The notes below the pieces were generated by a model. That model saw nothing but the letters and a program-made list of their open reading frames with translations. It did not search any database and was not told where the DNA came from. Below are positions 2,284 to 44,180 of a stretch of DNA of 64,000 bases, piece by piece; position 1 is the stretch's first letter, and each line of letters opens with the position of its first letter. Location of the stretch: positions 21,932,559 to 21,996,558 of the forward strand of contig NC_089726.1 in NCBI RefSeq assembly GCF_035083965.1. Reading direction: 5' to 3'. The DNA is from Branchiostoma lanceolatum. Lineage: Eukaryota > Chordata > Leptocardii > Amphioxiformes > Branchiostomatidae. The position numbers and the translations under genes were made by a program.

Positions 2284-2545
2284 CACATGGCCAGATGGTG
2301 TCGACCAATCAGAAGCCTCCATTGCCCACAATAAGTGGTCTGTTATCACGCCATAACACACCACTTATTGACGTCATGACATAACAAAACCGTTGCATTT
2401 TATAGATGGGGGTATCTTTTTGATGAATCTTTTTCTTAACCTAGCTTGTTTAAAATATCTTAATTGTCTTAAAATTCCCCCAAATGTCCTGAGAATACAT
2501 GAAGAATTCACGAAAAAAGGAAACAAATTCAATTCAAGTAAAATT
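2284..2545. mobile_element. Dispersed element spanning the left unit junction
   Basis: Begins CACATGGCCAGATGGTGTCG directly where homology to the TLC intron stops, and contains the ATAAGTGGT/ACCACTTAT palindrome at 2330-2368. It continues across 2377/2378 into the second unit, so the junction of the tandem copies lies within or next to this element. The portion at 1-170 is the same element cut by the window edge. Confidence 0.8.
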
Positions 2546-5234: not shown

Positions 5235-6165
5235 TGCTTTGCTAATTTATTCGTCACGTAACAATACCACCTGATGATTGTTATCACAGCCTACATGTTG
5301 CTTTCCGAAATCCAATTACTTAAGTATAAAAACTTTTGGTCGAGGTAATACTTACGTGTGGCTTGGTTTGAAATTAAATGTAATGATTTGATAAAATTCT
5401 ATCTATAGGTATACGTATATATCTATCAAGGCACTGCCAACGTTTATAAGGGACTGCGTAATGTTGTCTCATAATCCATGTTCCCAACACTTAAGGACTT
5501 TGTTTTCTTGATATCAGTCAACCTGGCATATCGTATAACATCACAACGGTCTCCATTACGTGACCTGCCGGTATAACCGTCCTTCGGCGTAACACACCAG
5601 CTTCGAGGGCACGCGGCGCGAGAGTAGTTGATTACATTACATCAAATGACCTGTCATAACACATAACTCATCACTAGGCGCATCTAGTTACAAGTGTTTC
5701 TTAAGGTATATTGGTGCCCCTGGTACTAAATTCCACCCAAAGATAGTTTTCAGGGAAATGTGTGAACACATAAGTCAAAACTTTGTAAGTGTGTTACTTT
5801 AAAGGCATGGCTATTTCTTGTTCTCTTTTTAGCTAATCAAGTGTGTATCAGTCGGTACGTCAACCAGCTTATTAGTAATTTTGTACATCATACAAAGTTT
5901 GGACAGTTTCATTCTATCTTCAAGTGATATCTACTGTAGATCTGTTTTCACTTTGGCGGCACTAGCATTCCTGTCGTAATTGTTCGAGCAAAATCTGGCT
6001 GTTGGTTATGCAACCTTTGAAGTTAATCTTCATGTTTTTAGTTCATATATGGATCCCATACTGTTGGCAGTGACGTGGCAGGTTCTTTCGGAATGCTGCA
6101 CGAGGAACTGTCTACTTGTTAGAAAGTCCCCCTCTCACTGGGCTGCGGTACTGCGGCGGAAGCTC

Positions 6166-13868: not shown

Positions 13869-16800
13869 TGCTTTGCTAATTCATTCGTCGAGTGACCACA
13901 GCACCTCATGATTGTTATCAAAGCCTGCATGTTGCTTTTCGAAATCCAATTACTTAAGCATATTACACTTTTGTTCAAGGTAATACATACGTCTGGCTTG
14001 GTTTGAAATTAAATGTAATGTTTTGATACATTCTATCTATAGGTATACGTATATTTCTATCAAGTCACTGCCAACGTTTATAAGGGACTGCGTAATGTTG
14101 TTTCATTATCCATGTTCCCAACACTTAAGGACTTTGTTTTCTTGATATCAATCAATCTGGCATATCGTATAACATCATAACGGTCTCCATTACGTGATCT
14201 GCCGGTATAACCGTCCTTCGGCGTAACACACCAGCTTCACAGGCACGCGGCGCGAGAGTAGTTGGTTACATTACATCAAACGACCTGTCATAACACATAA
14301 CTCACTAGGCACATCTAGTTACAAGCGTATCTTAAAGCTGTTTTGGTGCCCCTGGTATTAAATTCCATCCAAAGATAGTTCCAAGGAACTTTTTAAACAC
14401 ATCAAAACATGTTCGAGCAAAATCTGGCTGTTTGGTTTTGCAACCTTTCAAGTTAATCTTCATGTTTAAGTTCATATACGGATCCCATACTGTTCGCAGT
14501 GACGTGGTAGGTTATTCTGGAATGCTGCACGAGGAACTGTCTACTTGTTAGAAAGTCCCCCTCTCACTGGGCTGCGGTACTGCGGCGGAAGCTCATTACG
14601 GCACCGTCGCGACTTTTTCACCAATGTCCATATGCACTCTCACTGACGTGCGGCGCATATTTATGTTTAAAGCCCAGATGAGCAATCTATTTATATAGAC
14701 ATTATTGCTCGACAACCGCACATTGTACAATGTAGGGCAGTAAATCAACAATACTACAAGTCTAATCCATCCTACAATCATAAGTAAAGCCCCTGTCACA
14801 TTTTTGAGTATATAAAAGTCCGCATGAGTTGCGTATCAACATGTTTCTGGTTTAGGTAAGTTTGCAGTCGAAGAAGTGATTTCCTAGGTAGTTGACCTAG
14901 TTGGTTAATGTTGATACTTTTGTAAATCTGACTCCAGTTCGGTCATTAATTTGACTGCCACAGTCAGATCGTGTGAGGTTTCCAACGTAAACCATTCACC
15001 ATTACTATGCAAAAGCATTAACGTGCATCAAAAAAAGTTTTGAAGTGATGGACAGATTCACTCAAAAACATAGTCCAATCCATCTTGATGGAATTGTACC
15101 AATCCTTGAGAATTTTCATCGCCGTGACCTTAACATTCGACCCTATTTCATTGAATGATATTTATTGTAAACATATGGGCTACGTACAGGTCACAAAAGT
15201 AGTGTATAGTTAACAGTCACATGTACACATTGTCAAGCAAGCACAAGAACAATAATCTAAGAAAATTCGACTTCTCTCTTCTTTGAGACGGTGACCGTGT
15301 TAGCATCAGATGTGTTTTATGATCAAAGGTTTTTCCAGCCTCATTAAGAAAATGAAATTGTATTACTAAGCCGTAAAAAGTGGGGAAACATAGACTGTAT
15401 CAGTTATAAAGTTCTCTGTGGTTTAATCTATATAACATATTCTACTACAAAATGGTGTTCATCTTCTGCTCTATCTAGATTACAGAATCGACATATTCGT
15501 TGTTCCATGGGAGTGTGGTTAATATGATAACGTTATAATAACCACTTGCTTCTGCTCAAACCTACAAAAATGATGATTTCTTTAAGAAAGAAGGATTTGT
15601 ATCTTAAAATTCTATAAATTGTTCTTCAACTCATAACATATTTACCATCATGAATACTCAAACAACAGCAATATGCACCATATCCCCACCGTATGTCATC
15701 AACCCACATTGCCAATATACATGTATGGTCCTCAAACACACATTTTCAAACAATTGAAATAAGTAAATATAGCCATACACCAATTAGATTTTTTGAGAAG
15801 ACAGTAATCTTGAATCGATCCTGAACAATGATTCACTAATCTATATAAAGATATGAGTAAAGATTCATATAATGCATATTAGTCAAATCTAAGCGATAAG
15901 GTGCTAATATTGTTACAATTAGTATAATCTAAAGCTCTTTGATAGACCACACAAAACACCCATTTTAAGATTATGTATGATAAATCCACCTAAACATAAT
16001 CGTATAACCTTCTTCATGCTAGGGTATCCTTTTTTTCACACAACGTTGATACTGTTGGTTGGATCAAACAACAGGGAGAACGTTAACATAACGGAATGCT
16101 GGCAAGAAATATTCTAACATGATAAGGTAAAATACTGACTTAAGTACCTCGTTTTTAGCTTGGAAGTTAGTAGAAGGCTTTTATGCACTGCAAATACACC
16201 GTTTATTTGCTCTAAAGCAAAGTTGAATTGAATTTTTCCATAAAGAAATGAAAACTTAACAAAACTTTCTTTGTCAAGAAATGAGCAATTCTCCGCTCTT
16301 GTGATGTCACGCTAGGCAGAACACACGACACCGGTACCGTGGGCAGTGGATCATAAGTTGCAGAAAAGAATGGAGTTTGACAGTTTAGAATTATGTGTGT
16401 TAAAAATTACACTTTAGATTGGCTGCGGAATGATTTCTACCAACACAGATGAACTTTCAAGCTAACTTTCTGGTGAAATGTTGTGAACACTGATACTAGG
16501 CTATACGATATCTTACTGTGCCCCCGGGATTTGAGTTGTGCTCCTTACTTTTGGGTGAGGCCTACATCATTTTGATAATCTCTTGCACGCTAAATATTTT
16601 AGTTTGAAGGCAATTCAGAAAGCAATCGTTTTATCATCTTTAACGTAATGAACTTAACTACAGGTTCCTTGCGAGAGGTCTGCAGATCTTTTGATATCAA
16701 GATAACGATTGAGCTGCGATCTACTGAAATGCAAATAGCTGCATCCTCCTACGTGTCACGTAAAACTATCTATCAGTATATGAATACATAAACCATCCTC

Positions 16801-16871: not shown

Positions 16872-18929
16872 TTATGTGTCCTTTTTCAAGAGGACAGCAT
16901 CATTTTGAATTTGGCGTCCTTCCTCTTTATTTGGACCCGTCCGCTTACACGAATTGAAAAATCGAACTGACGCCCTGTAGCCCCAACTCGGAGTCAGAAT
17001 AAACGTTGACGTACCAAGAAACAACAAGAACATGGCTAATTGTAGGAAAGGTATGTTTACCCACAAGCTGTTCAAGTTTAGATATACCTGGACCCATAAG
17101 AAACACTCGACAGCTGAGCGTAGGTGGAAAGCGTGGATAAAGACCACCTGATTGATTTTCCAGAACAAGGAGTCGGCTAGCCCGTATTTTACAAGCCAAA
17201 AGTTTATTCTGCCAAATGGATTGATCACCTCGATGCTTAAAATAGCAATAGAAAAGTAGTTACAAAACTCGTAGTAGGCAACATAGAAATAGCCTGCAAA
17301 CGCTAAACAGTGGTGAACATGATCCAAAATGTCAAAATGTCCAGTGATCATGAGATCATTGGCTAGGGAGGCCAAGGCGTCAAACATGAAATAGCCGGTT
17401 GAGACGTAAACTACGACGAAGCCAGTGGCTGTAACGGCGTTGACGACGTCTTGATGGCTAACCTAAGATAACGATAAAAAAGTTGAAAAAGTATAGAAAT
17501 ACAAATAAATCAATATCTAACCTTCATCAAAATAACAATTTATGAAAAAAAAACAAATGGTAAAGATAATGTCGATAGCCGCTATGAAATTTATATTTCA
17601 TCTTATGCACACTGAAACGCGCAGGAACACACACACATAAAGACACAGAGTTACCACATTGACCGTTAGCTAACTCCAACTGACGCAGGCATCAAATCCC
17701 CATCATTAACCACTATTATTATACAGCAGATCCTCACCAGTTATGCAAATTAGACATTCTTTTTGCATAATTGATATTTTCCAATCCTTTTCTCTTTATC
17801 AGTTACATATGTTATATCTTGGGAAAGCCTATCTTAAAACGCAGTGGAATCACTCGTAAGATTATTTTGCAAAGTAGGTCCTAAAGTGCATTTACACACA
17901 TACCAAATAATAAACAGATCCATTCTCAGCTTCTTTACTTATAGAGTTATTACAAGATCAATTCTCCAAAGGATGCATTCGTGCAATATTTGAAGTATTT
18001 CTAAAACAATAATAATACTGTTAGATATGCCTCTGCTCATATGTGGCGTCTCTCACCTCGTCCCACCAGATGGCCCAGAGTCCCACCACTGTACCGAACA
18101 CTCCAAACAGGGCACGGGTAAATCCCAGATTCCAGATCACCTGAAGCAAAAATTAATTTCCAACTGTTTCTCAAGTCTTAATGTGAAGCAAGTATGGAGA
18201 ATGGAGCAGTTTAAGTGGAAATGGGCATTGACGGCATCGGTTACAGGAATAAGGAGGTTCACGACTGTAGGTACGCATGCGCAGTAAAATGCGTCGGGCA
18301 CAAGACGTCAAAGGTGAAGGCCATTGTTTCGATATGCATTACAATGACCCGTTTTGTTTATGTCTCAGTGTCCTACAACTTTGTTGAGGTTAAGGAGATT
18401 AAAGAAGACGATAGGAGAGGGTTGGGCTCTGCCTTCCAATACCGTGCCATACGACACATAGCAACCCACTGCCGCTACGGCCTCAGAATGACCACTCGAT
18501 TTTCAACTATAACATAATACAAATTTGGCTACACTTACACTTACGTACTCAGAATCGTGAGCGTCTTATAATTGTTTCTGTGCACCCCTGGCGTTAGTCA
18601 TCTGAATGACTCATTGACGAATAACGGTGCAACTTTAATCTTTACAAGTACTGTTAATTGACAAAATGGCGGTAGTGACAATATTTCCTTGCTCAATGTG
18701 GTCTATTAACCATGCTGATATGTTCTTTGATATTTGAGGTTTTCGATGAACGAACCTTGTTTCTTGACGATAAGTTCTGATAACTTTTCAGACCGTAGGA
18801 TCCCAGGGCGCCGACTAGGAACACGGCGGAGAAAAATAGAAAGGAACCGCCGATGAAGACGAGTTTGACCATCGGTTGTCTGTAGTCGATGGTCCCGAGG
18901 GCGGGGTGGATGGCTTCAACTAGACCCAT
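16872..18929 (-). CDS. TLC-domain membrane protein, copy beta (TLCD4/TMEM56-like)
   Basis: Exons are 18756-18929, 18057-18140 and 16872-17462, with the same lengths and phase-0 junctions as copy alpha (282 aa). Exon 1 begins MGLVEAIHPALGTIDYRQ. Exon 2 reads VIWNLGFTRALFGVFG and ends WWDE. Exon 3 contains the VHHCLAFAG core and ends LLKKDT. The arginine in FTR aligns with the conserved arginine of TLCD4 helix 2, which is lost in alpha (FPK). All splice sites are canonical and the acceptor TATACGCAG precedes the start. The product should be a multi-pass endomembrane or plasma-membrane protein. This copy looks least disturbed and is the best candidate for an expressed gene. The family call is high confidence; the molecular function is not known from sequence. 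Confidence 0.87.
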
Positions 18930-20053: not shown

Positions 20054-20113
20054 CGCGTTTTAATGATCCGAAGATTCTGTTGTCGACGTGGCGTCTTGGC
20101 TTTCCTCAACAAG
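20054..20113 (-). other. Probable non-coding first exon, TLC copy beta
   Basis: The donor GTAAGTGC (minus strand, 20046-20053) follows sequence that is well conserved among the three units while surrounding DNA diverges. It would splice to the acceptor just upstream of 18929. The 5' limit is not visible. Confidence 0.5.
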
Positions 20114-20131
20114 TGTTTGGTCAATTCATTC

Positions 20132-20141
20132 GTCACGTGAT
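20132..20141. promoter_or_regulatory. E-box upstream of TLC copy beta (GTCACGTGAT)
   Basis: A CACGTG E-box lies about 80 bp upstream of the proposed first-exon donor. The equivalent site is a perfect GTCACGTGAC at 42282-42291 (gamma), a mutated GTCGAGTGAC at 13887-13896 (alpha) and GTCACGTAAC at 5253-5262 (headless left unit). GTCACGTGAC is the known preferred site of USF and TFE/MITF-type bHLH-ZIP factors. Its use here is inference from position and from conservation in two copies. Confidence 0.4.
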
Positions 20142-20381
20142 AACACCACCTGATGATTGTTATCACAGCCTACATGTTGCTTTCCGAAATCCAATTACTT
20201 AATAAGTAAATGTATAATACAATTTTGGTCGAGGTAATACTTACGCGTGGCTTGGTTTGAAATTGAATGTAATGGTTTGATAAAATTCTATCTATAGGTA
20301 TACGTATATTTCTGTCAAGGCACTGCCAACGTTTATAAGAGACTGCGTACTGTTGTTTCATAATCCATGTTCCCAACACTT

Positions 20382-23300
20382 AACAGAATCCAAAATAATA
20401 AGGGAAAATCCATTTTATTCCCTTTTTGACGTCTTGAATTCTGAATTCTGAAGACGACAACGTGTTGAAAATAAAGATGTTATGGATTAAATAACAAAAA
20501 TGACAGACATTAGAAATCTAGAAAATACGAGCTTAGTGTCTAACATTGTTGCTTCTTTGTCGGCACGAGCGGACTCCCCTCTCTAAGGTAGACAAAATGG
20601 GCGTCCGGCCAGTGCCGGTACGAGGGGAACCCCCTCTTTCTGGCAGACAAAATGGGCATTCAGTGCCGGCGCGAGGGGACTCCCGTCTCTCTGGCGGAAA
20701 AGATGGGCGTCCGGCCAGTGCCGGGACGAGGGGAACCCCCTCTTTCTGGCAGACAAAATGGGCATTCAGTGCCGGCGCGAGGGGACTCCCGTCTCTCTGG
20801 CGGACAAGATGGGCGTCCGGCCAGTGCCGGGACGAGGGGAACCCCCTCTTTCTGGGAGACAAAATGGGCATTCAGTGCCGGCGCGAGGGGACTCCCGTCT
20901 CTCTGGCGGACAAGATGGGCGTCCGGCCAGTGCCGGGACGAGGGGAACCCCCTCTTTCTGGGAGACAAAATGGGCATTCAGTGCCGGTACGAGGGGACTC
21001 CCGTCTCTCTGGCGGACAAGATGGGCGTCCGGCCAGTGCCGGGACGAGGGGACCCCCCTCTTTCTGGGAGACAAAATGGGCATTCAGTGCCGGTACGAGG
21101 GGACTCCTTTCTCTCTGTCAGACCGGCAAGATGGGCGTCCAATGACGGCACGAGGGGACTCCCCTCTCTCTGGCGGACAAGACTGGCGTCCAATGCTGGA
21201 CCCGACATGAAGTCACCCTTCATTAAAGTACAAGGTAAAGTACATTTGTCAGCTTTTAGTTACATCACACACTCACAAACAAATGAAACGAATGTTTTTA
21301 CGTATTTATTAGTTAACATACAACAAAGTCCGCTGCATTACACTTCAGCATCTTTTAACTGGGCAATATAGCTTTAACGGCAATTACTGAAATCAACGTC
21401 TCTGAAAACTAAGAATGACTTTATAATTGCAGACTGTGACAACTCAACAATCTTAAGTGTTTAGAAAACGTCGCATCTGTTTAATCTGTAAACGAAACCT
21501 GAACACTTTGAGCAAGCAGATAACCAACTACCTCTGTGACAAAGTGTACAATGAATTAATAGCTTGAAGGAAGCCAAAATATTTTCAGAAACGCTGTTAT
21601 TTTTTTCTGATTGTAGCCAAACAGTGTTCAATACAGAGATATCTTACTTTCACTGCTAGCATATTCAGCTATACCACATGTTTTTAGAATATCATAACTG
21701 TAAAAGGAAAGCCACGATTGCTTTACGGCAACAATTGAACGCTAAAATTAGTCATCTCAAATTAAGACTTTATCATACAATGCAGATCGATATAATGTCA
21801 AATATAACGACACACGCAGATATACATAATGTATCTAAATGTTAATAAGACCTAAGAGGCTAAGACGTGATCTGTACTGGTCACCATACAAGTATTCTCA
21901 AGCACAATATCAATAATAAACTTGACAAACATGTGGTCGTAACTACAGATGTGCTCAAGCGGGTCACACTATGATATCAGAAAGGATACTTCATATATGC
22001 GGCCTGTCCATCATAATAAGAATGAATTCAGGAGCTGTCTGCGTAAAGTCCTTTTGGTCGTCCTTTGTCCTGTAAAATTTGCTCCCGATACCGCGATCTG
22101 TAAATAAAATTAGGACTACGTTTATTGACAGTTCGATATTCGAGGCCGGATAAACAAACACAACATTGTACGTGCCCTGTTTCAAAAAAGCAAGCAAACA
22201 AACAAACAAGCACCTGTTGTGCCCTCCCTTTCATGTTCAGTAATCAGTACTCAAATGAACAAATAAACAGATACAGTTACGTTATCAAACTTCGAAACAA
22301 CTTTGTTGTACATGAAAATAACGGAACAAACGTACTGCCTGCCGCATGTTAGTGAAAGAAGCTAACCCATTTTGAACTGCTACCAACTTTACTGTTTTCA
22401 GTCTGATATTCCTACATTCTTCGTGTGGACAAGTTGGGCATCATACTTGGCCGAACAGTGCCTACTGACTTACATGTAAACGCTATCCTTATCTCCAAAG
22501 ACTAGCCCAGTATAATTGCTTATGTGTGTTTCTGACAGTGAAACTTTTACATTATTCTCCATCTACAAAATGTGTCTGCCCCCTTTCCCCGTGCGATACA
22601 GTTTCGCAGCACGGGGATTTCTACAGCCAATGACCCCAAATTTAGCTTCGACGCGGGAATGTCTAGGCGAACCTTCTATCAAAGAATGCCGCTTTTCTAG
22701 GGCCTTGGGTGGTCGTCTTGGGTTGGTTTGACTGTACTTTAGATTTTGACCGCATCGGAATATGCAGTATTGCAGCGTGGGCTATTACACAGTTGTCAAG
22801 TGCACAGTTGTCAATTGCACCGAATCTCCGAATCCCAAACAAAACGTTTCATTTTCACACTACTGTTAGTGCGATCGTTTCTTTTGCACTGCACATCATC
22901 GTCACGCTCGGCTAAGTGCATCGAGATTTAACAAACATTGTTAGAAATAGAACCAGTCAATGTTTGCCATTGTTTCTCTGTCGGAAAGGTCACATGCGAT
23001 CAACGAAACGTTGGATGCAAAACTCTTTGGTTGTGGATAAAGAACTTGTTCGTCATTCTCTTGCCACCCTGATGAAATTATACACGAATGTCAGGATCTC
23101 CAGACTAGTAGCTAACTGATCCTAACTGTTTCACCGGATTTTGTAGACGTTTTGGCCGAAATATCGTCACTCCAGAACGTCAACACTGACTTAAAAGTGT
23201 GCCAAATTTCTCCTAGCTTCTGTAAATTACTGCGACCTTTCACCGCCTACAATAATGAACCTTAATCTATCGTCAAACATGCTCCGCCAAGCGCTCATGA

Positions 23301-24268
23301 GGTCTCCTAAATGCTGACAGAATGACACAGACAATAAAATACTCGGAGATCCTGCGTGCTCTGCTTGGAGATTACATCATTACACTTTTTCCGGGGCTAA
23401 TCACTTTCCCGGGCTAATCCCCTACGCGGCGGGGGAGTTGCTTCAACCTCCTTGGTTACCGATACTCGTATCGCACGAGTACCATGAGTACTTCATTACT
23501 TTATAATACGTTATATATTCGGTCAAGTCTAAAGATGGTGGGCACCGATGTGTAAACGTCAAACGTCTTTTTACACTCTTAGATAAACATATTTGCGGTG
23601 AAGAAGAAAATTGCTGACCCCAACTATCGTATGCTCTGGTACCTAGAGAAGGGTCATGCTGGTAATATGAGAACACAACAATGTTTTCTGTTCTCTCGAA
23701 GTAGAGGGCTTGAAGCCTTCGGCTAGCATGAAAAAGCCCTACAAAAACGCTTAAAAGACGTCAAGGAAACAAAGAAGACAGAACTAAAAAGACAGAAGCG
23801 GTTTAAAACGGAACAGTAGCCTGAATACAGCGGTTTCAAATATGATTTACCATGGTGACCTTTAACCCCTCCTACCATACACCACATGAAATAGTAGTGA
23901 ACAAGACTCCTCGACAAACTGATCATGATCCAGTTAGCTTGACACATGGATAGGACAACGTGCATATCATTGTTTCTGCAAAAACCCTTACTGCAACAGT
24001 CTATGAAAGATTGCCATCATCACTCCTGTAGTGTAGTCTAGATTTATAACAGACGACATGGCAACAGTCTAAGGAAAATGCTACACCGTTTTGGTTCTAG
24101 ACACCATCCCCGGCCTATAAATGATCCCCAATCCCCTATAAATGATCCCCTATCCCAAATGATCGGAAAAGGACTTGTAAACATGTGCGCACTACTCGAT
24201 AAAGAACATTCTTGGCCCCCTGTCGACGCCAGGACATTCCGAACGGCGTTAACGTTTACAAGATAACA
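20382..24268 (+). repeat. Left arm of the giant element
   Basis: This arm pairs with 27166-31012 on the opposite strand. Through the inner part, coordinates of paired positions sum to 51433. The sum shifts by about 172 across an insertion in the right arm (about 29226-29397), and by about 211 across the minisatellite, where this arm has two more units. It contains AT-rich termini, the minisatellite and several short open frames that are present in both arms without recognised domains. Confidence 0.93.
20562..21205 (+). repeat. GC-rich minisatellite, left arm (about 6 units of 106 bp)
   Basis: The 106-bp unit is itself two half-units of about 53 bp. One has GGGCGTCCGGCCAGTGCCGG and the other GGGCATTCAGTGCCGG, each followed by CGAGGGGA and CTCTCTGGC or CTTTCTGGC. 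Units are nearly identical inside the block, and the GC content is far above that of the surrounding arm. Because 106 is not divisible by 3 and stops are rare, all three plus-strand frames are open over long distances. That is a property of the repeat, not evidence of a protein. Confidence 0.92.
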
Positions 24269-25358
24269 ATGACATCCTTTCTTGAGAGCCCTCGAAGCAA
24301 CTATTATGCTACTATAAGACTTTCAAGAGCCGGCGCAAATAGCACCAAATAGCAACACTTTTAGTTTTATGTGCAGACGAGCATCCCCCCTCCCCCTAAA
24401 ATACGGCCTCCCTATGGACAAATGTATGATTCGAGAAACATACCTTCTTAGGAGAGGTCTCATTCCAAAAACAGACGTACTGCTTCATCATTTTCCACGG
24501 ATGTAAGTTCGGGGCTTGTTCCGTACGTACCCATGAGCGGTTGAATGAAGAACACCCAAGCAAGACGTCTAGTCTGTAAATGCCGACTGTTGGAATGACA
24601 AGTTTCTGTTCATTTGAAACACATGTTTATCTTGGAGGTGCCGGGGTTTCAACAAAGGGGTTGTACATTATGTAAGTAGGGGTATCCATGCTCTAACACT
24701 ACACGGGCGACCGTTGATCATGACAAGGCTTGTTACGGTGAAGTTTGTCCGTTCAAAGGACCTCCTTGGTCCGTTGGTGGGATGCAATCAGCTCAGAGTT
24801 TGAACCTGAAGCTCTCGACCGCCGTACAGAACGACTCTGCTTCATCCCTGCCAAGCGTACAATGAACACTCCCGGAAAAAAACTCGAGATAGGCCGAACA
24901 ATGGGGTGGTTATCTAGAGAGTCAGTTGGAAGTTACGGTGGAAAAGTGTACTTCATTGAATTAGATACCTTTAAGGTCTTTTCAGAAATATCTTTTGATT
25001 GTAAACTGATTCTTTTTTTCCCCACTTCATTCGCCCAAGAAAGTTATATGACCGCTCAACGGACAAGGGTTAACGTTTCGGTCCAATTCTTCAAACAGAT
25101 GTTGTTTATTGACCTGTCACATCTAGTCCGGCCCAGTCAACGCTGGCATGGCTACATTCGGCTGGAGGACCTTTTCCCCTGGGGCAGGTCAAGTTTCCTT
25201 GGCGGATTTTGTTTCGAGGCAGGCTGGGAGCTAATCCTCAAGCTGATCTTCACGGGAGCAAAATTGTATCGGCCAGCCCGAAAATCTTATATGGGGGCTG
25301 GCTGGAGCTTGGGAGCTGACAGCCTCGAGTCCAGTCTTTTTAGATGTAGTACTCTCAT
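24269..25358. other. Unique spacer of the giant element, left part
   Basis: This sequence lies between the arms and has no inverted partner. A 208-codon plus-strand open frame (24745-25371) shows no domain I recognise and runs into the LINE fragment in another frame. No transposase signature such as a DDE/D core was recognised in any frame. Confidence 0.55.
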
Positions 25359-25763
25359 GACCTGGTGTTAGTGTACATCGGATTTGTACGCCCAGTGTTG
25401 GAGTGCGCCTGCCAAGTATGGCACCCGGGACTGACTGTTGCAGAGTCGTAGTCGATTGAAAGGGTCCAGAAAAGGGCATGTAAGATTATCCTGGGCCGGT
25501 CTTACACCAGTTACAACTCAGCCCTACAAACACTCTCCATGACACCGCTATCTCAACGTGCAACGACGATGTGAACTCTGCCGAAACTTCGCACTGCTCA
25601 TGCTAAAATCCCCTGTCTTCAGGAACTGGCTGCCCCCTTCCAGCGGCGACATCAGCATTAGAGACACTAGACAGAAACACTTATTGTCAACCACTAGAAC
25701 AAGAACAAATAGCTTCAAGAACAGTCCAATCCTTTATATGACCCGTCTTTTGAATGAACAGTG
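25359..25763 (+). pseudogene. Broken LINE reverse-transcriptase C-terminus
   Basis: Conceptual translation gives VYIGFVRPVLECACQVWHPG, then an in-frame stop, then SIERVQKRACKIILG. After a frame change it reads RNWLPPSS and ends at a stop near 25764. These are the hallmarks of the region after the polymerase domain in CR1/Jockey-clade LINEs: IRPVLEY, VWHPGL and IQKRACRIILG. The downstream AT-rich tail to about 26030 may be its 3' UTR. At least one stop and one frameshift make it inactive. It sits inside the unique core of the giant element, either as a passenger or as a later insertion. Confidence 0.85.
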
Positions 25764-27165
25764 ATATCTAAACTTACACACATGTTTCATTGTTGCGAAG
25801 TAGTCTTGCCTTTACACATTTATGCAGACCATTACTGATCAGTTGTTCTAACTGCTTAATTGCCTGTTAGAATCACAATGTATCCGTCTCCGCCAATTGA
25901 AAGTATTATCTGTATAAGCGGTAAATAGTTAGTTTTAGAATACGACCTGTAAAGCAAGTACGCAATTCAGCCAGCTATGTACTAACTGCTTTGTTGTTTT
26001 AGCAATAAACATTTCTACATGTATATAAGCTCCGCTCTCCGCCTTCACACTGAAACTAAATATTGGTCGGGATTTTTAACGTCTTCCTCATCAGTCTGTG
26101 AGGAAAATACACTTCCTCATTATCATCCCGGTCACTACTAATTTCCCCCTCCCCGATCAAAACCTCTGCTTGGAGAATATGTTTTAGTGTAATTCCCAAA
26201 CAGTCGTTGACTTTGGAATTAAATGGTGCGTTTGATCCCACCAACAGTACAAAATAATGCAGCTAGTAGAAAACTTATCGAGCATGGCAACAAACTTTCT
26301 AACATCGAATAGTTCAGGAGTACACACGCAAGGTATGAATGCGGGAAGGCGCTATTCGATCGGGAGAGGCGGACATTGTTTTGAAGTCTAACTTATGATG
26401 GGAATCTGTACACGACGTAACGGTACACAAATATTGCAACGATAACAAAAAACAAAATTATTGCAGCGTCTTTCCTTCAATGGGAATTGAATCTGCTGGT
26501 AAACGTAGCCGTTTAGAATAACATCATTTCCCTTCCATCTATGATCTATGTAAAGATGTATTGACTAACACCTCAACTTGGAAACATGTTGTGAGTCGAT
26601 TCTCTTCAAGGATCTACAACACGTACCACCTATCCAATGCGAGCGCTTTTGCTCGCCTTGGAAAGGTTTGACTGGTAGTTTGCCGCGCCAGCTTCTTCAA
26701 GTTCTTGCCTCCAAAATTCTGCCCCCCATTCGCAGTGCAGTCAGGCCCTGTTACAGTCCCCTGAGATCTAGGGCGAGCCGGGGCGCTGGCCTGTACCAAG
26801 AGCTCCTTGCCAGGAGGTTAAACCTCCTTGCCTGTACTAACCGAAAAGCCGTCTGGCTCCCAGATAATCTCCAAGCAGATCTCCATGGGGGCGAAACTTT
26901 TTTGACTTCAAAACAATGTCCGCTTCTCCCGATCCGCATTCATACCCGACGAGTGTACTCCACACATACATTCACGTCCCCAGGATACTACCGTCCTCCC
27001 AGCATGCTTCGCGCACCAAAAATACGCTCTCTGTCCCAGGGCTGTCTTTGCGAACAAACCGCTATAGTAGCCCTCATGCGGCCAAAAAGTGAATTGCATA
27101 AAAGACTCGCACTCGCATATTCAGTGGAACAAGTCAATTTATTACGACGCTGTGAAGGAGCGTGG
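25764..27165. other. Unique spacer of the giant element, right part
   Basis: No recognised gene. A 239-codon plus-strand open frame (26578-27297) crosses the arm boundary at 27165 and lacks recognisable motifs, so it is not called. A short palindrome, AGGAGGTTAAACCTCCT, lies near 26814. Similar AGGAGGTT motifs occur near 23440, 27980 and 52475 and may be shared short terminal motifs of another repeat family. Confidence 0.5.
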
Positions 27166-30100
27166 TTATCTTGTAAACGTTTAACGCCGTTCGGAATGTC
27201 CTGGCGTCGACAGGGGGCCAAGAATGTTCTTTATCGAGTAGTGCGCACATGTTTACAAGTCCTTTTCCGATCATTTGGGATAGGGGATCATTTATAGGGG
27301 ATTGGGGATCATTTATAGGCCGGGGATGGTGTCTAGAACCAAAACGGTGTAGCATTTTCCTTAGACTGTTGCCATGTCGTCTGTTATAAATCTAGACTAC
27401 ACTACAGGAGTGATGATGGCAATCTTTCATAGACTGTTGCAGTAAGGGTTTTTGCAGAAACAATGATATGCACGTTGTCCTATCCATGTGTCAAGCTAAC
27501 TGGATCATGATCAGTTTGTCGAGGAGTCTTGTTCACTACTATTTCATGTGGTGTATGGTAGGAGGGGTTAAAGGTCACCATGGTAAATCATATTTGAAAC
27601 CGCTGTATTCAGGCTACTGTTCCGTTTTAAACCGCTTCTGTCTTTTTAGTTCTGTCTTCTTTGTTTCCTTGACGTCTTTTAAGCGTTTTTGTAGGGCTTT
27701 TTCATGCTAGCCGAAGGCTTCAAGCCCTCTACTTCGAGAGAACAGAAAACATTGTTGTGTTCTCATATTACCAGCATGACCCTTCTCTAGGTACCAGAGC
27801 ATACGATAGTTGGGGTCAGCAATTTTCTTCTTCACCGCAAATATGTTTATCTAAGAGTGTAAAAAGACGTTTGACGTTTACACATCGGTGCCCACCATCT
27901 TTAGACTTGACCGAATATATAACGTATTATAAAGTAATGAAGTACTCATGGTACTCGTGCGATACGAGTATCGGTAACCAAGGAGGTTGAAGCAACTCCC
28001 CCGCCGCGTAGGGGATTAGCCCGGGAAAGTGATTAGCCCCGGAAAAAGTGTAATGATGTAATCTCCAAGCAGAGCACGCAGGATCTCCGAGTATTTTATT
28101 GTCTGTGTCATTCTGTCAGCATTTAGGAGACCTCATGAGCGCTTGGCGGAGCATGTTTGACGATAGATTAAGGTTCATTATTGTAGGCGGTGAAAGGTCG
28201 CAGTAATTTACAGAAGCTAGGAGAAATTTGGCACACTTTTAAGTCAGTGTTGACGTTCTGGAGTGACGATATTTCGGCCAAAACGTCTACAAAATCCGGT
28301 GAAACAGTTAGGATCAGTTAGCTACTAGTCTGGAGATCCTGACATTCGTGTATAATTTCATCAGGGTGGCAAGAGAATGACGAACAGTTAAGTTCTTTAT
28401 CCACAACCAAAGAGTTTTGCATCCAACGTTTCGTTGATCGCATGTGACCTTTCCGACAGAGAAACAATGGCAAACAATGACTGGTTCTATTTCTAACAAT
28501 GTTTGTTGAATCTCGATGCACTTAGCCGAGCGTGACGATGATGTGCAGTGCAAAAGAAACGATCGCACTAACAGTAGTGTGAAAAGGAAACGTTTTGTTT
28601 GGGATTCGGAGATATGGTGCAATTGACAACTGTGCACTTGACAACTGTGTAATAGCCCACGCTGCAATACTGCATATTCCGATGCGGTCAAAACCTAAAG
28701 TACAGTCAAACCAACCCAAGACGACCACCCAAGGCCCTAGAAAAGCGGCATTCTTTGATAGAAGGTTCGCCTAGACATTCCGGCGTCGAAGCTAAATTTG
28801 GGGTCATTGGCTGTAGAAATCCCCGTGCTGCGAAACTGTATCGCATGGGGAAAGGGGGCAGACACATTTTGTAGATGGAGAATAATGTAAAAGTTTCACT
28901 GTCAGAAACACGCATAAGCAATTATACTGGGCTAGTCTTTGGAGATAAGGATAGCGTTAACATGTAAGTCAGTAGGCACTGTTCGGCCAAGTATGATGCC
29001 CAACTTGTCCACACGAAGAATGTAGGAATATCAGACTGAAAACAGTAAAGTTGGTAGCAGTTCAAAATGGGTTAGCTTCTTTCACTAACATGCGGCAGGC
29101 AGTACGTTTGTTCCGTTATTTTCATGTACAACAAAGTTGTTTCGAAGTTTGATAACGTAACTGTATCTGTCTATTTGTTCATTTGAGTACTGATTACTGA
29201 ACATGAAAGGGAGGGCACAACAGGTGATCAGTAAGAAGAACTGTAAAATTCCTACTGAGCTAAAATGTTATACATAGCAATCGTTATTTATCCGCCTTTC
29301 TGGCTATTAAACCTTGTTGCTAAGACAGCCCACAGGTAAGAAAGCTATAAATCCAAATACATTTAAAGCTTACTGTTTGCTTGTTTTTTGCTTATTTGTT
29401 TGTTTGCTTGTTTGTTTGTTCGAAACAGGGCACGTACAATGTTGTGTTTGTTTATCCGGCCTCGAATATCGAACTGTCAATAAACGTAGTCCTAATTTTA
29501 TTTACAGATCGCGGTATCGGGAGCAAATTTTACAGGACAAAGGACGACCAAACGGACTTTACGCAGACAGCTCCTGAATTCATTCTAATTATGATGGACA
29601 GGCCGCCTATATGAAGTATCCTTTCTGATATCATAGTGTGACCCGCTTGAGCACATCTGTAGTTACGACCACATGTTTGTCAAGTTTATTATTGATATTG
29701 TGCTTGAGAATACTTGTATGGTGACCAGTACAGATCACGTCTTAGCCTCTTAGGTCTTATTAACATTTAGATACATTATGTATATCTGCGTGTGTCGTTA
29801 TATTTGACATTATATCGATCTGCATTGTATGATAAAGTCTTAATTTGAGATGACTAATTTTAGCGTTCAATTGTTGCCGTAAAGCAATCGTGGCTTTCCT
29901 TTTACAGTTATGATATTCTAAAAACATGTGGTATAGCTGAATATGCTAGCAGTGAAAGTAAGATATCTCTGTATTGAACACTGTTTGGCTACAATCAGAA
30001 AAAAAATAACAGCGTTTCTGAAAATATTTTGGCTTCCTTCAAGCTATTAATTCATTGTACACTTTGTCACAGAGGTAGTTGGTTATCTGCTTGCTCAAAG

Positions 30101-31012
30101 CGTTCAGGTTTCGTTTACAGATTAAACAGATGCGATGTTTTCTAAACACTTAAGATTGTTGAGTTGTCACAGTCTGCAATTATAAAGTCATTCTTAGTTT
30201 TCAGAGACGTTGATTTCAGTAATTGCCGTTAAAGCTATATTGCCCAGTTAAAAGATGCTGAAATGTAATGCAGCGGACTTTGTTGTATGTTAACTAATAA
30301 ATACGTAAAAACATTCGTTTCATTTGTTTGTGAGTGTGTGATGTAACTAAAAGCTGACAAATGTACTTTACCTTGTACTTTAATGAAGGGTGACTTCATG
30401 TCGGGTCCAGCATTGGACGCCAGTCTTGTCCGCCAGAGAGAGGGGAGTCCCCTCGTGCCGTCATTGGACGCCCATCTTGCCGGTCTGACAGAGAGAGAGG
30501 AGTCCCCTCGTACCGGCACTGAATGCCCATTTTGTCTCCCAGAAAGAGGGGGTTCCCCTCGTCCCGGCACTGGCCGGACGCCCATCTTGTCCGCCAGAGA
30601 GACGGGAGTCCCCTTGCGCCGGCACTGAATGCCCATTTTGTCTGCCAGAAAGAGGGGGTTCCCCTCGTCCCGGCACTGGCCGGACGCCCATCTTGTCCGC
30701 CAGAGGGAGGGGAGTCCCCTCGTACCGGCACTGAATGCCCATTTTGTCTGCCAGAAAGAGGGGGTTCCCCTCGTACCGGCACTGGCCGGACGCCCATTTT
30801 GTCTACCTTAGAGAGGGGAGTCCGCTCGTGCCGACAAAGAAGCAACAATCTTAGAGACTAAGCACGTATTTTCTAGATTTCTAATGTCTGTCATTTTTGT
30901 TATTTAATCCATAACATCTTTATTTTCAACACGATGTCGTCTTCAGAATTCAGAATTCAAGACGTCAAAAAGGGAATAAAATGGATTTTCCCTTATTATT
31001 TTGGATTCTGTT
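27166..31012 (-). repeat. Right arm of the giant element
   Basis: Inverted counterpart of 20382-24268. It differs by scattered substitutions, about 172 bp of extra sequence near 29226-29397 and about two fewer minisatellite units. The high similarity over 3.8 kb implies either a recent origin or continuing gene conversion between arms. Confidence 0.93.
30405..30840 (-). repeat. GC-rich minisatellite, right arm (about 4 units)
   Basis: Same 106-bp unit as in the left arm, inverted, with about four units instead of six. The copy-number difference shows that the two arms change length independently. Confidence 0.9.
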
Positions 31013-34000
31013 ACTTAAGGACCTTGTTTTCTTGATATCAGTCAATCTGGCATATCGTATAACATCATAACGGTCTCCATTTCGTGATCTGCCGGTATAA
31101 CCGTCCATCGGCGTAACACACCAGCTTCGCAGGCACGCGGCGCGAGAGTAGTTGATTACATTACATCAAATGACCTGTCATAACACATAACTTATCACTA
31201 GGCGCATCTAGTTACAAGTGTTTCTTAAGGTATATTGGTGCTCCTGGTACTAAATTCCACCCAAAGATAGTTTTCAGGGAAATTTGTGAAGACATAAGTC
31301 AAAACTTTGTAAGTGTGTTACTTTAAAGGCATGGCTATTTCTTGTTCTCTTTTTAGCTAATCAAGTGTGTATCAGTCGGTACGTCAACCAGCTTATTAGT
31401 AATTTTGTACATCATACAAAGTTTGGACAGTTTCCTTCTATCTCCAAGTGATATCTACTGTAGATCTGTTTTCCCTTTAGCGGCACTAGCATTCCTATCG
31501 TAATTGTTCGAGCAAAATCTGGCTGTTTGGTTATGCAACCATTGAAGTTAATCTTCATGTTTTTAGTTCATATATGGATCCCATACTATTGGCAGTGACG
31601 TGGCAGGTTCTTTCGGAATGCTGCACGAGGAACTGTCTACTTGTTAGAAAGTCCCCCTCTCACTGGGCTGCGGTACTGGGGCGGCAGCTCATTACGGCAC
31701 CGTCGCGAATTTTTCACCAATTTTCATATGCACTCTCACTGACGTGCGGCGCATATTTACGTTTAAAGCCCAGATGAGCAATTTATTTATATAAACATTA
31801 TTGCTCGACAACCGTACACTGTACAATGTAGGGCAGTAAATCAACAATACTACAAGTCTAATCTACCCTACAATTATAAGTAAAGCCCCTGTCACATTTT
31901 TGAGTACATAAAAGTCCGCATGAGTTGCGTATCAACATGTTTCTGGTTTAGGTTAAGTTTGCAGTCGAAGAAGTGATTTCCTAGGTAGGTGACCTAGTTA
32001 GTTAATGTTGATACTTTTGTAAATCTGACTCCAGTTCGGTCATTAATTTGACTGCCACAGTCAGTTCGTGTGAGGTTTCTCAATAAACCATTCACCATCA
32101 CAAGGCAAAAGCATTAACGTGCATCAAAAATAGTTCTGAAGTTATGGTCAAATCACTCAAAAACATAGTCGAATCGATCTTGATGGAATTGTACCAATCC
32201 TTGAGAATTTTCATCGCCGTGACCTTAACAGTCGACCCAATTTCATTGAATGATGTTTATTGTAAACATATGGGCTACGTACAGGTCACAAAAGTAGTGT
32301 TTAGTTAACAGTCACATGTACACATTGTCAAGCAAGCACAAGAACAATAATCTAAGAAAATTCGACTTCTCGCTTCTTTGAGACGGTGACCGTGTTAGCA
32401 TCAGATGTGTTTTATGATCAAAGGTTTTTCTAGCCTCATTATCTTCGCCGATATGTTTTTGGTTGAGCCAGCTGTTGGTGGGTCTGTATGTATGTCAAGA
32501 GTATAACTCAATAAACCTTTGATGAATCTTTATGATTTTTAGTAGGTGTGTAGTGGTTGTACAAGGGACGGTCAAGTTTAAAAGGGGTTCAAGTTGCGTT
32601 TTCCACCAGTACTGCAGCGGACTTTTAACTTTTTTGTATTTGTTTGTAGGCAAAAAAAGTGACGGAAACATTGATGGATCTTCATGATTTTTTGTAGGTG
32701 TGTAGATGTTGTAAAAACGGTGGTCAAGGTCAAAAATGATTCCCCTGGCATTTTCCATCGTTACTGCAGCGGGCTTTGCGTGGATGTATATTTGTATGTG
32801 GACAACATAAGTCGAGAAGCTGTTGATGGTTCTGTATGATATTTAGTTGAAGGGTAGGGTTAACAGAAAGAAAGGTCAAGTTCGATAATGGGCATTCTAT
32901 CGGATACCTAAGGTACTGCAGCGGAGCTTCAAAATTTTGGAGCATATTTTCTGAAAGTGCTATGGTCATGATTTTTATGTGGTAGGTAGTTCATGTCACA
33001 GGAAGTGAATTGTGTAAGTTAGGCCCCCCTAGCGTCTTGATTGGAACTACAGTGGGTGTTTTTGTTTTGACCTTCGGACATGAATAACTTGAGAAGGGGT
33101 CGACAGATCGTCGTGAATTTGGAATGTAGAGAGCTCAGATGGTGCTTTACAGAATTAATGACTTATTATGCAAATCAGGAGCTAATCTGCATAATTAGTA
33201 AGGATAGTTTTTAGATCCACTAAATTTCATAATTAGACATGTGACAGTGTTCCCGAAACAGGTCAACAGAGGGCCTTTCCTGAAAGTATAAATAAACAGA
33301 TGGGGCACATAACTAAACAGATAGGGCAGTGTCACTACACTCCACGCAGATGTGTGGGTCCGGTTGGTTTTAAACGTGTCCAGTTTAGCATTTTTGTCCA
33401 ACACACGGTTGGAGACATAACGAAAAGGGGACAAAATAGAAAGCCTGACAGAAACATCTAAAAACACGTAAAGAACCAGTCGGACCCACGGCCACTCCTC
33501 TGCTCAGAGAGCACAATGCACCAAAACTGCAAAACTGCTAGGTATTACCTAGTACCGTATGGAAAACACATGTCATGTACAATGTCTTTCAAAATGTGAT
33601 TGATATGGAATAAAGATTTATTCTATTCATATATATTGACTGCACCATTTAATCATAACTTTCAATATTTTTGATGACCAGTTATAACATATATCAGGAC
33701 ACTAGACACATATACTAGTCCTGTACCACCAAATGATTTCTATCCCTTTCAAGACTGGACTCATCCCCCCCATCATAACTTCCAAACGGTATGGTGTATG
33801 ATCAGATTTGCATGGGGTGATAGCATGTAAATATCAATCACTCTCCACAATGAGGCTTGATTATTTGGTCAAGATAATGTGTCTCTTGTTAAGAATATGA
33901 AATTGTATTACTAAGGCGTAAAAAGTAGGGAAACATAGACTGTATCAGTCAATAAAGTTCTCTGTGGTAAAATCTATGTAACATATTCTACTAAAAATGG

Positions 34001-35444: not shown

Positions 35445-38400
35445 TTACGTGTCCTTTTTCAAGAGGACAGCATCATTTTGAATTTGGCTTCCTTCCTCTT
35501 TACTTGGACCCGTCCGCTTAAACGAATTGAAAAATCGAACTAACGCTATGTAGCCCCAACTCGGAGTCAGAATAAACGTCGACGTACCAAGAAACAGCAA
35601 GTACATGGCTAATTGTAGGAAAGGTATGTTTACCCAACAGCTGTTTAAGTTTAGATATACCTGGACCCATAAGAAACACTCGACAGCTGAGCGTAGGAGG
35701 AAAGTGTGGATAAGAGCCAACCGATTGATTTTCCAGATCAATGAGTTGGCTAGCCCGCATTTTACGAGCCAATAGTTGATACTGCCTAACGGAGCGATCA
35801 CCTCGATGCTTAAACTAGCAAGTGAAAAGTAGTTACAAAACTCGTAGTAGGCAACATAAAAATAGCCTGCAAACGATAAAAAGTGGTGGACATTCGCCAA
35901 AATGTCTATATGTCCTGTGATCATGAGATCATTGGCTAGGATGGCCAAGGCGTCAAACATGAAATAACCGGTTGAGACGTAGGATACGACGAAGCCAGTC
36001 GGTGTAACGGCGTTGACGACGTCTTGATTACTAACCTAGGAAAAGATAAAAAAGTTGAATAAGTATAGGAATACAAATGAATCAATTTCTTACCATTATG
36101 AAAATAGCAATTTAAAAATAAATGAAACTAGAAAGGCAACATTTGCGGGAGCAAATGCAACATGTTTCGCCCATTTCCCTTCCCATGCAAAAAGCGACTG
36201 TGGCATAGAGGCTAACGTTTGTTGTATGTCTGCAATGTTGGTATTTGAATGAATGATTGAAATTCAATGTACTTGGTTGGCTTCGTATTAAAAGAGTAAA
36301 TTATGTTTACTTCAAGTAAATGTAGGACCGATAATGCAATATGGCGCTGGCATGACACTGTTGATATATGCAAAAAGGCGACCAACAAAACTTCGCCATC
36401 AAGCCGACTATCTGGTAACGTTACCACAAACAAAACAAGTTGCAGACGATTGTGTGTGGTGAAATCTTCGGCTTTTTTAAACAAGTGCCAGTGGTTGCGA
36501 TGAAAATACTATTTTTTAGTACAACGCTACGCCACACATTTTTTTTTAGCACTATCGATCAGCGCCGATATTCAAGACTTCCCCGCGGCCCGATAGTGTA
36601 GACATGGAACAGGGGTTTACGCAAGGAGGTTGAAAATTCTTAGGTTTACGTCATTTTTAGCCAAAAAACTTTAAACAGTTACTCAAAGCAAGGGCCTTCT
36701 TGCTCAAGGTAAATTTTCACGCACTTCACAACTCTCTATTGTGATTGTTTATGTTATTGTCAACGTCTCGACACGGGATGTTTCCTAAGGTGGGAAACTT
36801 TGGACACTTTGTGTGCACTATTGTGCTCACTGCACTGGTGTCCAATCTTGGAGACACAGGGGTAGAAAACTAGTGCACATAGCGAGGAAATGTCAGGTTT
36901 CACCATAGTGTCCAAGCTTGCAAACTTGTGGAAATCTTTGTTTCCATGCAGTGTTAAAATAAGAAAAACACCGTGTGTGTCGAAAAATACCACCAGAAAA
37001 GTTTTGAACCTTCTCAATTGCACTTAACTTCAGTAGGACACAACAATAACAACACAAGGATGTGACCCAGGGTGTAGTGAAATTGTGCCTGCACCAGTAG
37101 TGCCCCTAATTAAATTGACTTTTTAAACCAATCAGGTTGAGCTTGATAGATCTGCGCTCTCTCATTGGCTGACCGAATTAGTCCACCTGGCCAGATGAAT
37201 AAAGATGTGACCTAAAGGTCAGTGACCCCATATGAGGAAAATAGCCGATCTTCTCCCCAAAAACACCCTCTAAAATCGTATTTTGAAGTGTTGTATGCCA
37301 AAAGTGCGAATGGGATTCTTTGAATATTTGTTCAATGTACCCCTATAGCAAATTTCAGGTCATTTGGATGTATTTCCAGAGCACAGGAGGCCAAAATGTA
37401 CGTTTTTGGTCAGAAAAACCTCAATAAAATCACTTTCAAGGTCGATATCGAGAAAATTAAAAAAAGTCTCCCAGGGTATTTACCCACTCTACCTGTATAC
37501 CAAATTTCAGCTCAGTTGGTCCAGGGACGACCGAGCTGAGTCGATTATAAGATTTGCCAGGAGAAAGAAACGGTACGAAAACAATATGTATCGCCCATAC
37601 CTATAGTATGGGCGATACATAATGGTATAGATAATTTAGGTAACCGCTATGAGGCCCACTGTGAAATTTATATTTCATCTTATGCACACTGAAACGCGCA
37701 GGAACACACACACATAAAGACACAGAGTTACCACATTGACCGTTAGCTAACTCCAACTGACGCAGGCATCAAATCCCCATAATTAACCACTATTATCTTA
37801 CATCAGATCCTCATCAGTTATGCAAATGAGACATTATTTTGCATAATTGATATTTGCTAATGCTTTTCTCTTCATCAGTTAAAAATGTTATATCTTGGGA
37901 AAGCCTATCTTGGAACGCAGTGGAATCACTCATAAGATTATCTTGCAAAAATAGGTCTAACGTGCATTTACCCACATGCCAAATAACATACAGATCCATT
38001 CTGAGCTTCTTCACTTATAGAGTTATAACAAGATTAATTCTCCAAAGGATGCATTCGTGCAATATTTGAACTATTTCTAAAACAATTATAATACTGTTAG
38101 ATATGCCTCTACTCATGTGCTCGTCTCTCACCTCGTCCCACCAGATGGCCCAGAGTCCCACCACTGTACCGAACACTCCAAACAGACCACGAGTAAATCC
38201 CAGATTCCAGATCACCTGAGGCAAATATTAGTACAGTAGAGTCCATTCCCAGTCACCAAAAGGGTTTTCATTGTCATCATTTACAGCTGTTTTTAATTCT
38301 TTGTAATTATATGTCTATGAGATTTCATACTTTGGAAATATTGTGAATGTCATTTCAACTATATAATGATTTGCCCGGATGTGTAAAACTTTGGAAATAT

Positions 38401-39169
38401 TAATGATGTAGAATATGATCTTTCTAAAAGTTTCTAAATAATGGTTACAGCATTCTACCATTTTCTACCATTTTTTTAAATTATTTGTGACATAGGTCAG
38501 TGGGCTGTGAATAAAGCAATTCACACATCTTATCAAGGAATAAAGCTTGGACATCATGCATAGATGGCTAGCCACAAAGGACCTAACAATGTCCAGCAGT
38601 GAAATCTAAAAATATAGAGGCAGACAATAGGGCTGGATTAGCACCTACTTTAATGGGGGAAATTACCCAAATCCACTATTGAAAAACTGTTGTAAACATT
38701 TCTCTATATTTCGAAATTAAGAAGAATCACATAGATATTTGCAAATTATTCTAGGGGAGAGGGTTGGGCTCCGCCGTCCAATACTGTGCCATACGACACA
38801 TAACACCCCACTGCCGCTAACGTTTCTGTGCACCCCTGGCATTAGTCATCTGAATCCCTCCTTGACGAATAATGGTACAACTTTAATCTTTAAAAGCGAC
38901 AAAATGGCGCGGTAGTGACAAGATTTCCTTGCTCAATGTGGTCTATGAACCATGCTGATATGGTCTTTCATATTATAGGTTTTCGATAGACGAACCTTGT
39001 TTGTTGACGATAAGTTCTGATAACTTTTCAGAACGTTGGATCCCAGGGCTCCGACTAGGAACACGTCAGAGAAAAATAGAAAGGAACCGCCGATGAAGAC
39101 GAGTTTCACCATCGGTTGTCTGTAGTCGATGGTTCCGAGGGCGGGGTGGATGGTTGAAGTTGAAGCCAT
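35445..39169 (-). CDS. TLC-domain membrane protein, copy gamma, altered start
   Basis: Exons are 38996-39169, 38132-38215 and 35445-36035, again 174, 84 and 591 bp with phase-0 junctions. Exons 2 and 3 are intact: VIWNLGFTRGLFGVFG, the VHHFLSFAG core and the tail ending LLKKDT. Exon 1 no longer begins MGLVEA. An inverted copy of its own 5' end is fused there, supplying a replacement ATG that reads MASTST before IHPALGT and keeps the total at 282 residues. The normal acceptor 8 bases before the ATG is gone; the nearest minus-strand AG lies inside the palindrome. The frame is therefore intact but correct splicing to the first exon is doubtful. Intron 2 carries a 1.5-kb Helitron-like insertion, and the upstream intron carries a 1.8-kb element. 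It could be an early pseudogene or a gene with a new start. Confidence 0.75.
36128..37622 (-). mobile_element. Helitron-like insertion in copy gamma intron
   Basis: About 1.5 kb is present only in unit gamma. Alpha (near 10613), beta (near 17555) and the left unit (near 2140) read through without it. On the minus strand it ends CTAG, preceded by the hairpin GCATTTGCTCCCGCAAATG a few bases upstream, and it sits between A and T with no target duplication, all Helitron features. The other end is not the canonical TC: it begins TTATG with a 15-bp-stem palindrome (ATGTATCGCCCATAC). It carries no Rep/helicase coding region, so it would be non-autonomous. Confidence 0.65.
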
Positions 39170-39223
39170 CCACCCCGCCCTCGGAACCATCGACTACAGA
39201 CAACCGATGGTGAAACTCGTCTT
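39096..39223. repeat. 58-bp inverted repeat built from TLC exon 1
   Basis: Bases 39096-39153 (5' coding part of exon 1, minus strand) are repeated in reverse complement at 39166-39223, separated by a 12-bp spacer TTGAAGTTGAAG. Both arms contain ATCGACTACAGACAACC or its complement. A TATATATATA run follows the outer arm. This is the signature of a template switch or foldback event at the start codon. Confidence 0.95.
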
Positions 39224-43524: not shown

Positions 43525-44180
43525 AACATGTCGTACGACATATGTGACGTATGCCCTTTAAGATGAACATGTCGTACGACATATGTGACGTATGCCCTTT
43601 AAGAGGAACATGTCGTACGACATATGTGACGTATACCCTTTAAGAGGAACATGTCGTACGACATATGTGACGTATGCCCTTTAAGATGAACATGTCGTAC
43701 GACATATGTGACGTATGCCCTTTAAGAGGAACATGTCGTACGACATATGTGACGTATTCCCTTTAACAGGAACATGTCGTACGACATATGTGACGTATGC
43801 CCTTTAAGAGGAACATGTCGCACGACATATGTGACGTATTCCCTTTAAGAGGAACATGTCGTACGACATATGTGACGTATGCCCTTAAAGAGGAACATGT
43901 CGTACGACATATGTGACGTATGCCCTTTAAGAGGAACATGTCGCACGACATATGTGACGTATGCCCTTTAAGAGGAACATGTCGCACGACATATGTGACG
44001 TATGCCCTTTAAGAGGAACATGTCGTACGACATATGTGACGTATGCCCTTTAAGATGAACATGTCGCACGACATATGTGACGTATGCCCTTTAAGAGGAA
44101 CATGTCGCACGACATATGTGACGTATGCCCTTTAAGAGGAACATGTCGTTTGACATATGTGACGTATGCCCTTTAAAAAG
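43525..44180. repeat. 41-bp palindromic minisatellite, 16 units
   Basis: Sixteen head-to-tail units of exactly 41 bp start at 43525 and step by 41 to 44140. Each carries ATGTCGTACGACAT, a perfect 14-bp palindrome in most units, followed by ATGTGACGTATGCCCTTTAA. Variation is concentrated at one position in the palindrome (GTCGTACGAC against GTCGCACGAC) and in the linker (GAGG or GATG). No length variants were seen. It starts about 3 bp after the donor of the candidate exon above. Confidence 0.97.

Follow-up and report, generated by a model that had tools for sequence, protein, structure and literature searches.

What is the 10.6 kb of DNA (20382-31012) that lies among tandem gene copies at this Branchiostoma lanceolatum locus, and does it represent an undescribed class of transposable element? 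We analyzed the entire 64,000-base stretch (hereafter the window; 0 N, 40.7% GC), and joined the sequences flanking the element (20100-20381 and 31013-31300) for alignment to the paralogues within the window. The joined flanks were identical to one empty paralogue at 515 of 559 positions and to a second at 372 of 412 positions, and both empty paralogues were 4 bases shorter at the junction, with one ACTT there and two at the filled site. The single ACTT at the empty paralogues, when compared to the two at the filled site, indicates a precise insertion; the initial annotation had proposed an insertion with a target duplication on the basis of two uninterrupted paralogous sites, and both sites were recovered here. 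Most simply, the insertion is younger than the duplications that produced the paralogues. On the minus strand, the tandem paralogues are represented by four similar open frames (1465-2052, 9934-10569, 16875-17462, and 35448-36035). The one among these that was scanned, 16875-17462, gave a weak TLC-domain match below the cut-off (E 0.0051), and a protein search with it returned no homologue (37 candidates; 0 at E <= 0.001). Positions 1-1716 and 2378-4093 form a direct duplication (99.9% over 1716 bp), which is either very recent or a haplotype or assembly duplication.

The direct repeat common to both edges of the element is ACTTAA (i.e., 6 bp at most), and the target ACTT sits within ACACTTAAGG. 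When the ends are read as symmetrical (AACAGAATCC...GGATTCTGTT) the duplication is the 4-bp ACTT (AACAG...CTGTT; element 20382-31012), and symmetrical ends are also compatible with a duplication of CT (TAACAG...CTGTTA; element 20381-31013). With ACTTAA or TTAA as the duplication, the inverted ends become ragged: the right end then carries 2 or 4 surplus bases, respectively. From this one copy, we prefer ACTT over CT, ACTTAA, and TTAA. Accordingly, where the annotation had given "ACTT (up to ACTTAA)", the ACTT part agrees with the symmetrical ends, whereas the extension needs ends that are ragged by 2 bp.

The interior of the element is organized as two inverted arms around a core that has no inverted partner (Table 1), as had been annotated (near-identical arms of about 3.9 kb around a 2.9-kb core). 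Self-BLAST of the window revealed three inverted matches: 22211-24267 to 29226-27165 (99.2% over 2062 bp), 20770-22212 to 30836-29389 (97.6% over 1448 bp), and 20381-20987 to 31013-30407 (93.6% over 611 bp, mostly minisatellite). From the outside inward, each arm consists of an AT-rich 179-bp outer domain (30% GC in the left copy), a GC-rich array, and an inner domain of 3.1 kb (left copy, 41% GC). The 162 bp present only in the right arm may be an insertion in that arm or a deletion from the left arm. The core looks like old repeat debris: it holds an inverted pair of its own (26317-26391/26901-26961; 73%), and a piece near 25370-25760 that we take to resemble the end of a LINE reverse transcriptase corresponded to no Pfam family and had no homologue in a homology search. 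Comparison of the element with the rest of the window (E <= 1e-3) yielded nothing beyond one 22-bp match (26232-26253 to 34607-34586). Other inverted structures in the window are a perfect inverted repeat (39096-39223; 58 bp, loop of 12 bp) and two long imperfect palindromes that resemble small hairpin elements (53402-53817 and 56862-57339, matching their own reverse complements at 82.5% and 78.9%, respectively).

Table 1. Coordinates of the element, its parts, and its insertion site within the window.
Feature	Position	Strand	Basis or remark
Left ACTT target site duplication copy	20378..20381		single ACTT at both empty paralogues
Right ACTT target site duplication copy	31013..31016		comparison with empty sites
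Empty paralogous site 1, single ACTT	5489..5492		515/559 to joined flanks
Empty paralogous site 2, single ACTT	14123..14126		372/412 to joined flanks
Left inverted arm, 3886 bp	20382..24267	+	inverted match to 27165-31012
Left outer (flanking) domain, terminus AACAGAATCC, two subterminal hairpins	20382..20560	+	DNA folding, GC
Left minisatellite, 12 half-units, 64% GC	20561..21199	+	end of last unit approximate
Left inner arm domain, no recognized coding sequence	21200..24267	+	Pfam scan
Core (middle domain), 2897 bp	24268..27164		without inverted partner
Right inverted arm, 3848 bp	27165..31012	-	self-BLAST and global arm alignment
Stretch only in right arm, 162 bp, beside CAAA-rich tract	29227..29388		arm comparison
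Right minisatellite, 8 half-units, same register as left	30406..30833	-	end of last unit approximate
Right outer domain, terminus GGATTCTGTT	30834..31012	-	empty-site comparison, folding

Folding of the left outer stretch 20382-20520 gave z = -2.96, with 2 of 200 shuffles folding as well, and for the right outer stretch 30880-31012 the count was 3 of 200; for comparison, 24 of 200 shuffles did as well as one array dimer. Tandem Repeats Finder placed the 106-bp array at 30489-30833 on the right and at 20561-21117 on the left, where other rows of its output end at 21180. Half-unit spacing within the arrays alternates between 55 and 51 bp, and since the two half-unit types are related (identical at 40 of 51 aligned positions, plus a 4-bp gap), the 106-bp unit is a dimer. 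Thus the annotated 106-bp GC-rich repeat is indeed present in both arms, but as a dimer of half-units and not as a simple unit. Between the left and right arrays, the first two half-units and the last are identical, and the second-last differs by one base. Likeness of the array to the 179-bp outer domain was at chance level (271 of 1000 dinucleotide shuffles as good, both strands), as was its likeness to the last 60 bp (176 of 1000, both strands; 199 of 500 and 21 of 500 for the strands taken separately). The idea that the array supplies extra copies of a terminal binding site is therefore unsupported. A second minisatellite in the window (43525-44176) has a 41-bp unit in about 16 copies (96% matches) with the palindrome GTCGTACGAC in the unit.

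We then weighed whether the full 10.6 kb is the mobile unit. The true transposon could instead be short (the outer domain, perhaps with the array), the 10.6-kb form being a one-off that arose through an inverted duplication or from a composite of two neighboring head-to-head copies that transposed together a single time. Consistent with such an origin, a single copy was seen (the window alone having been searched; no second copy lies in its 64 kb), and the core and left inner arm have no recognized domain. However, neither arm has a second terminus at its inner edge: the 18-bp end TAACAGAATCCAAAATAA, allowing up to 2 mismatches, occurs in the window only at the two outer edges, and a one-mismatch match of the 10-bp end in the core (25204) is one of five such matches in the window. 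The absence of inner termini argues against a composite of two complete elements; truncated inner copies are unaffected by this argument. Overall, we regard a one-off origin as unlikely. An exact search with the terminal 23-mer gave 0 matches in IMG/VR and GTDB contigs, collections where none is expected, and no paper on amphioxus foldback elements or on LanceleTn was found in a literature search that left subscription journals and Repbase outside its scope.

Alternatively, the element could be a degraded autonomous one whose core holds a transposase that Pfam fails to recognize because of decay or novelty. In favor of this are two stop-to-stop frames, one of 209 aa within the core and one of 242 aa that extends a few bases beyond the core into the right arm. 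Neither frame has a Pfam match, and scanning all six read-through frames of the core revealed 0 matches at E up to 5, making this explanation very improbable. The six read-through frames of 21201-24276 gave only DUF3410 (E 0.1) and an SPMIP4-like match (E 0.23), both far below the cut-off and at chance level, and for the right arm the scan covered two frames plus the tail of a third that begins in the core, with 0 Pfam matches. No transposase was recognized in the scanned core and left inner arm. Elsewhere in the window, the open frame 45975-46499 (+) has an endoribonuclease XendoU match above the cut-off (E 1.1e-9).

Global alignment of the arms gave 40 mismatches, 6 of which lie past the inner edge, leaving 34 substitutions within the arms. 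The alignment also contains five gaps, measuring 212, 168, 4, 1, and 1 bp; the second of these is 162 bp in the BLAST frame. None of the 34 substitutions fell in the innermost 1307 bp, which contain one 4-bp and one 1-bp indel. A substitution-free inner stretch of this length was equalled in 1 of 20000 uniform placements, and in 28 of 20000 when 17 substitutions were used (those left when 11 from the outer domain or minisatellite and 6 from the CAAA tract are set aside). The arms, described in the annotation as nearly identical, are thus of high identity, but the likeness is uneven. Substitution-free inner arms fit recent gene conversion between the arms, a pattern that assembly polishing could also produce, and the two indels in the inner 1.3 kb indicate that homogenization there is incomplete. 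Least probable of all is that the inverted structure is partly an assembly artifact (e.g., a join between two haplotypes at the repeat, or polishing with short reads that made the inner arms equal), a reading with which the substitution-free inner 1.3 kb is compatible and for which the 99.9% identical 1.7-kb duplicate (1-1716/2378-4093) could hint at nearby assembly trouble, but the outer ends are inverted copies that each abut one half of a single target site, the arms differ by 34 substitutions, the 162-168-bp indel, and two array dimers, and an artifact could change the inner arms and core but hardly the inverted ends.

The element has long inverted arms, internal tandem repeats, and a non-homologous middle, together with the ACTT duplication and two empty paralogues, all of which agree with the structural class of foldback transposons. 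FB is a foldback of the Mutator type. Tetris, a Drosophila virilis foldback transposon, is described as having arms built of an outer flanking domain, a tandem-repeat array, and an inner domain, with a non-coding middle of variable content, variable array copy number, 8-10 bp duplications, arms of up to 1,735 bp, 220-bp repeats, and 37 bp common to the outer domain and the repeat; its authors report that no transposase was found and suggest Mutator from the 8-10 bp duplications (PMC4079207). Among the elements compared, Tetris has the closest plan to the element studied here, with a three-part arm containing an array, an apparently non-coding middle, and no transposase recognized in the scanned core and left inner arm. 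By description, the two differ in duplication (8-10 bp vs. ACTT), arm length (at most 1,735 bp vs. 3.9 kb), and repeat unit (220 vs. 106 bp), and the sharing between outer domain and repeat in Tetris has no significant counterpart here. Assignment to the Mutator-type foldbacks fails on the duplication, which cannot be longer than the 6 bp repeated directly at the two edges.

Galileo, of the P superfamily, is described with long inverted ends whose internal tandem repeats change length independently at each end, ends extended by recruiting internal sequence, 7-bp duplications, and a longest end of about 1.26 kb in D. mojavensis (PMC3573991). Tandem repeats inside long inverted ends, with array lengths differing between the ends, are common to Galileo and the present element; the described 7-bp duplication and ~1.26-kb ends differ from the ACTT and 3.9-kb arms found here. 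Membership of the P superfamily is contradicted by the duplication, which is 4 bp if the ends are symmetrical and no longer than 6 bp on any reading. No P-type transposase was recognized in the core or left inner arm either, but non-autonomous members need none. The foldback or Galileo-like plan proposed in the annotation is thus sustained, long inverted arms with internal arrays having been published for Tetris and Galileo. The suggestion of an undescribed element class is not, given that the same modular plan is already published for Tetris and tandem repeats in the ends for Galileo: with the class known, unfamiliar termini imply a new family at most.

Sola, Chapaev, and other superfamilies make 4-bp duplications. 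We included Kolobok, KolobokP, Ginger, and Academ in the comparison on account of their short duplications. Kolobok is described with a 4-bp TTAA duplication and RR...YY termini, and KolobokP, listed for three Branchiostoma species, with solo repeats flanked mainly by 3-5 bp duplications without a strong target preference and with terminal repeats in direct orientation that measure about 450 or 660 bp and each have their own short inverted ends (PMC9587614). The 4-bp duplication resembles that of Kolobok, and AA...TT here is compatible with RR...YY, a weak likeness (RR arises by chance 1 in 4 times). A TTAA target, however, fits here only with ragged ends beginning CAG, which is not RR, and since AA...TT goes with ACTT, the two Kolobok features never occur together. 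The short duplication and the compatible AA...TT termini are likewise shared with KolobokP as described, but KolobokP requires long terminal direct repeats and the long terminal repeats here are inverted. Ginger1 and Ginger2, the latter reported in lancelet, are described with 4-bp duplications, TGTNR termini, and the targets CCGG/CCGT or RTATAY (PMC2836005). The present element matches the Ginger description in its 4-bp duplication and differs in its target, ACTT within ACACTTAAGG, and in its AACAG end, which excludes it on the TGTNR termini. Academ, for which a 3-bp duplication is described, is excluded because no 3-bp reading at the element edges preserves symmetrical ends. The Repbase rule asks for duplications of the same length and for similar termini across positions 1-11.

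Taken together, the element is probably one copy of a non-autonomous, foldback-type, cut-and-paste DNA transposon whose transposase is supplied in trans. The empty sites with ACTT, the arms and core, arrays in register yet with 12 vs. 8 half-units, the lack of a protein domain in the core and left inner arm, and the uneven arm divergence support this interpretation. Counting against it are the single known copy, which gives no evidence of mobility as a family, an array unlike the outer domain (whereas Tetris shares sequence between these), the longer duplications of the compared foldback lineages (Tetris 8-10 bp; Galileo 7 bp), and the two inner-arm indels, with polishing able to mimic homogenization. 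Compared by description with the nearest candidates, it probably represents a family that is new but of a known kind, and not a new class. A transposase encoded elsewhere would bind terminal or subterminal sequence of both ends and move the entire 10.6 kb, with 4-bp staggered cuts at the target that would then be filled in. The arms probably reached their length when a shorter inverted repeat took in adjacent internal DNA via inter-arm recombination or gene conversion, a step we borrow from the route proposed for Galileo ends. Each arm may later have gained or lost array dimers on its own, and homogenization may have been more recent in the innermost 1.3 kb than in the outer part.

What sets the element apart is its short duplication and its 3.9-kb arms; the plan itself is already known. 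More speculatively, and with only a modest chance of being right, the element may belong to a foldback family moved by a transposase superfamily so far unlinked to foldbacks, with a short ACTT-like duplication, AACAG termini, and the longest arms of the compared foldbacks, their near-identity kept by ongoing inter-arm gene conversion. Inverted arms as long and as alike as these might promote ectopic recombination and inversions and might seed minisatellites. The element alone leaves the general picture unchanged, and it would add a large foldback-type element with a short target duplication, unlike the compared fly foldbacks. Its short duplication agrees with the idea, cited in the Tetris description, that the foldback plan arose independently from different transposon lineages (PMC4079207).
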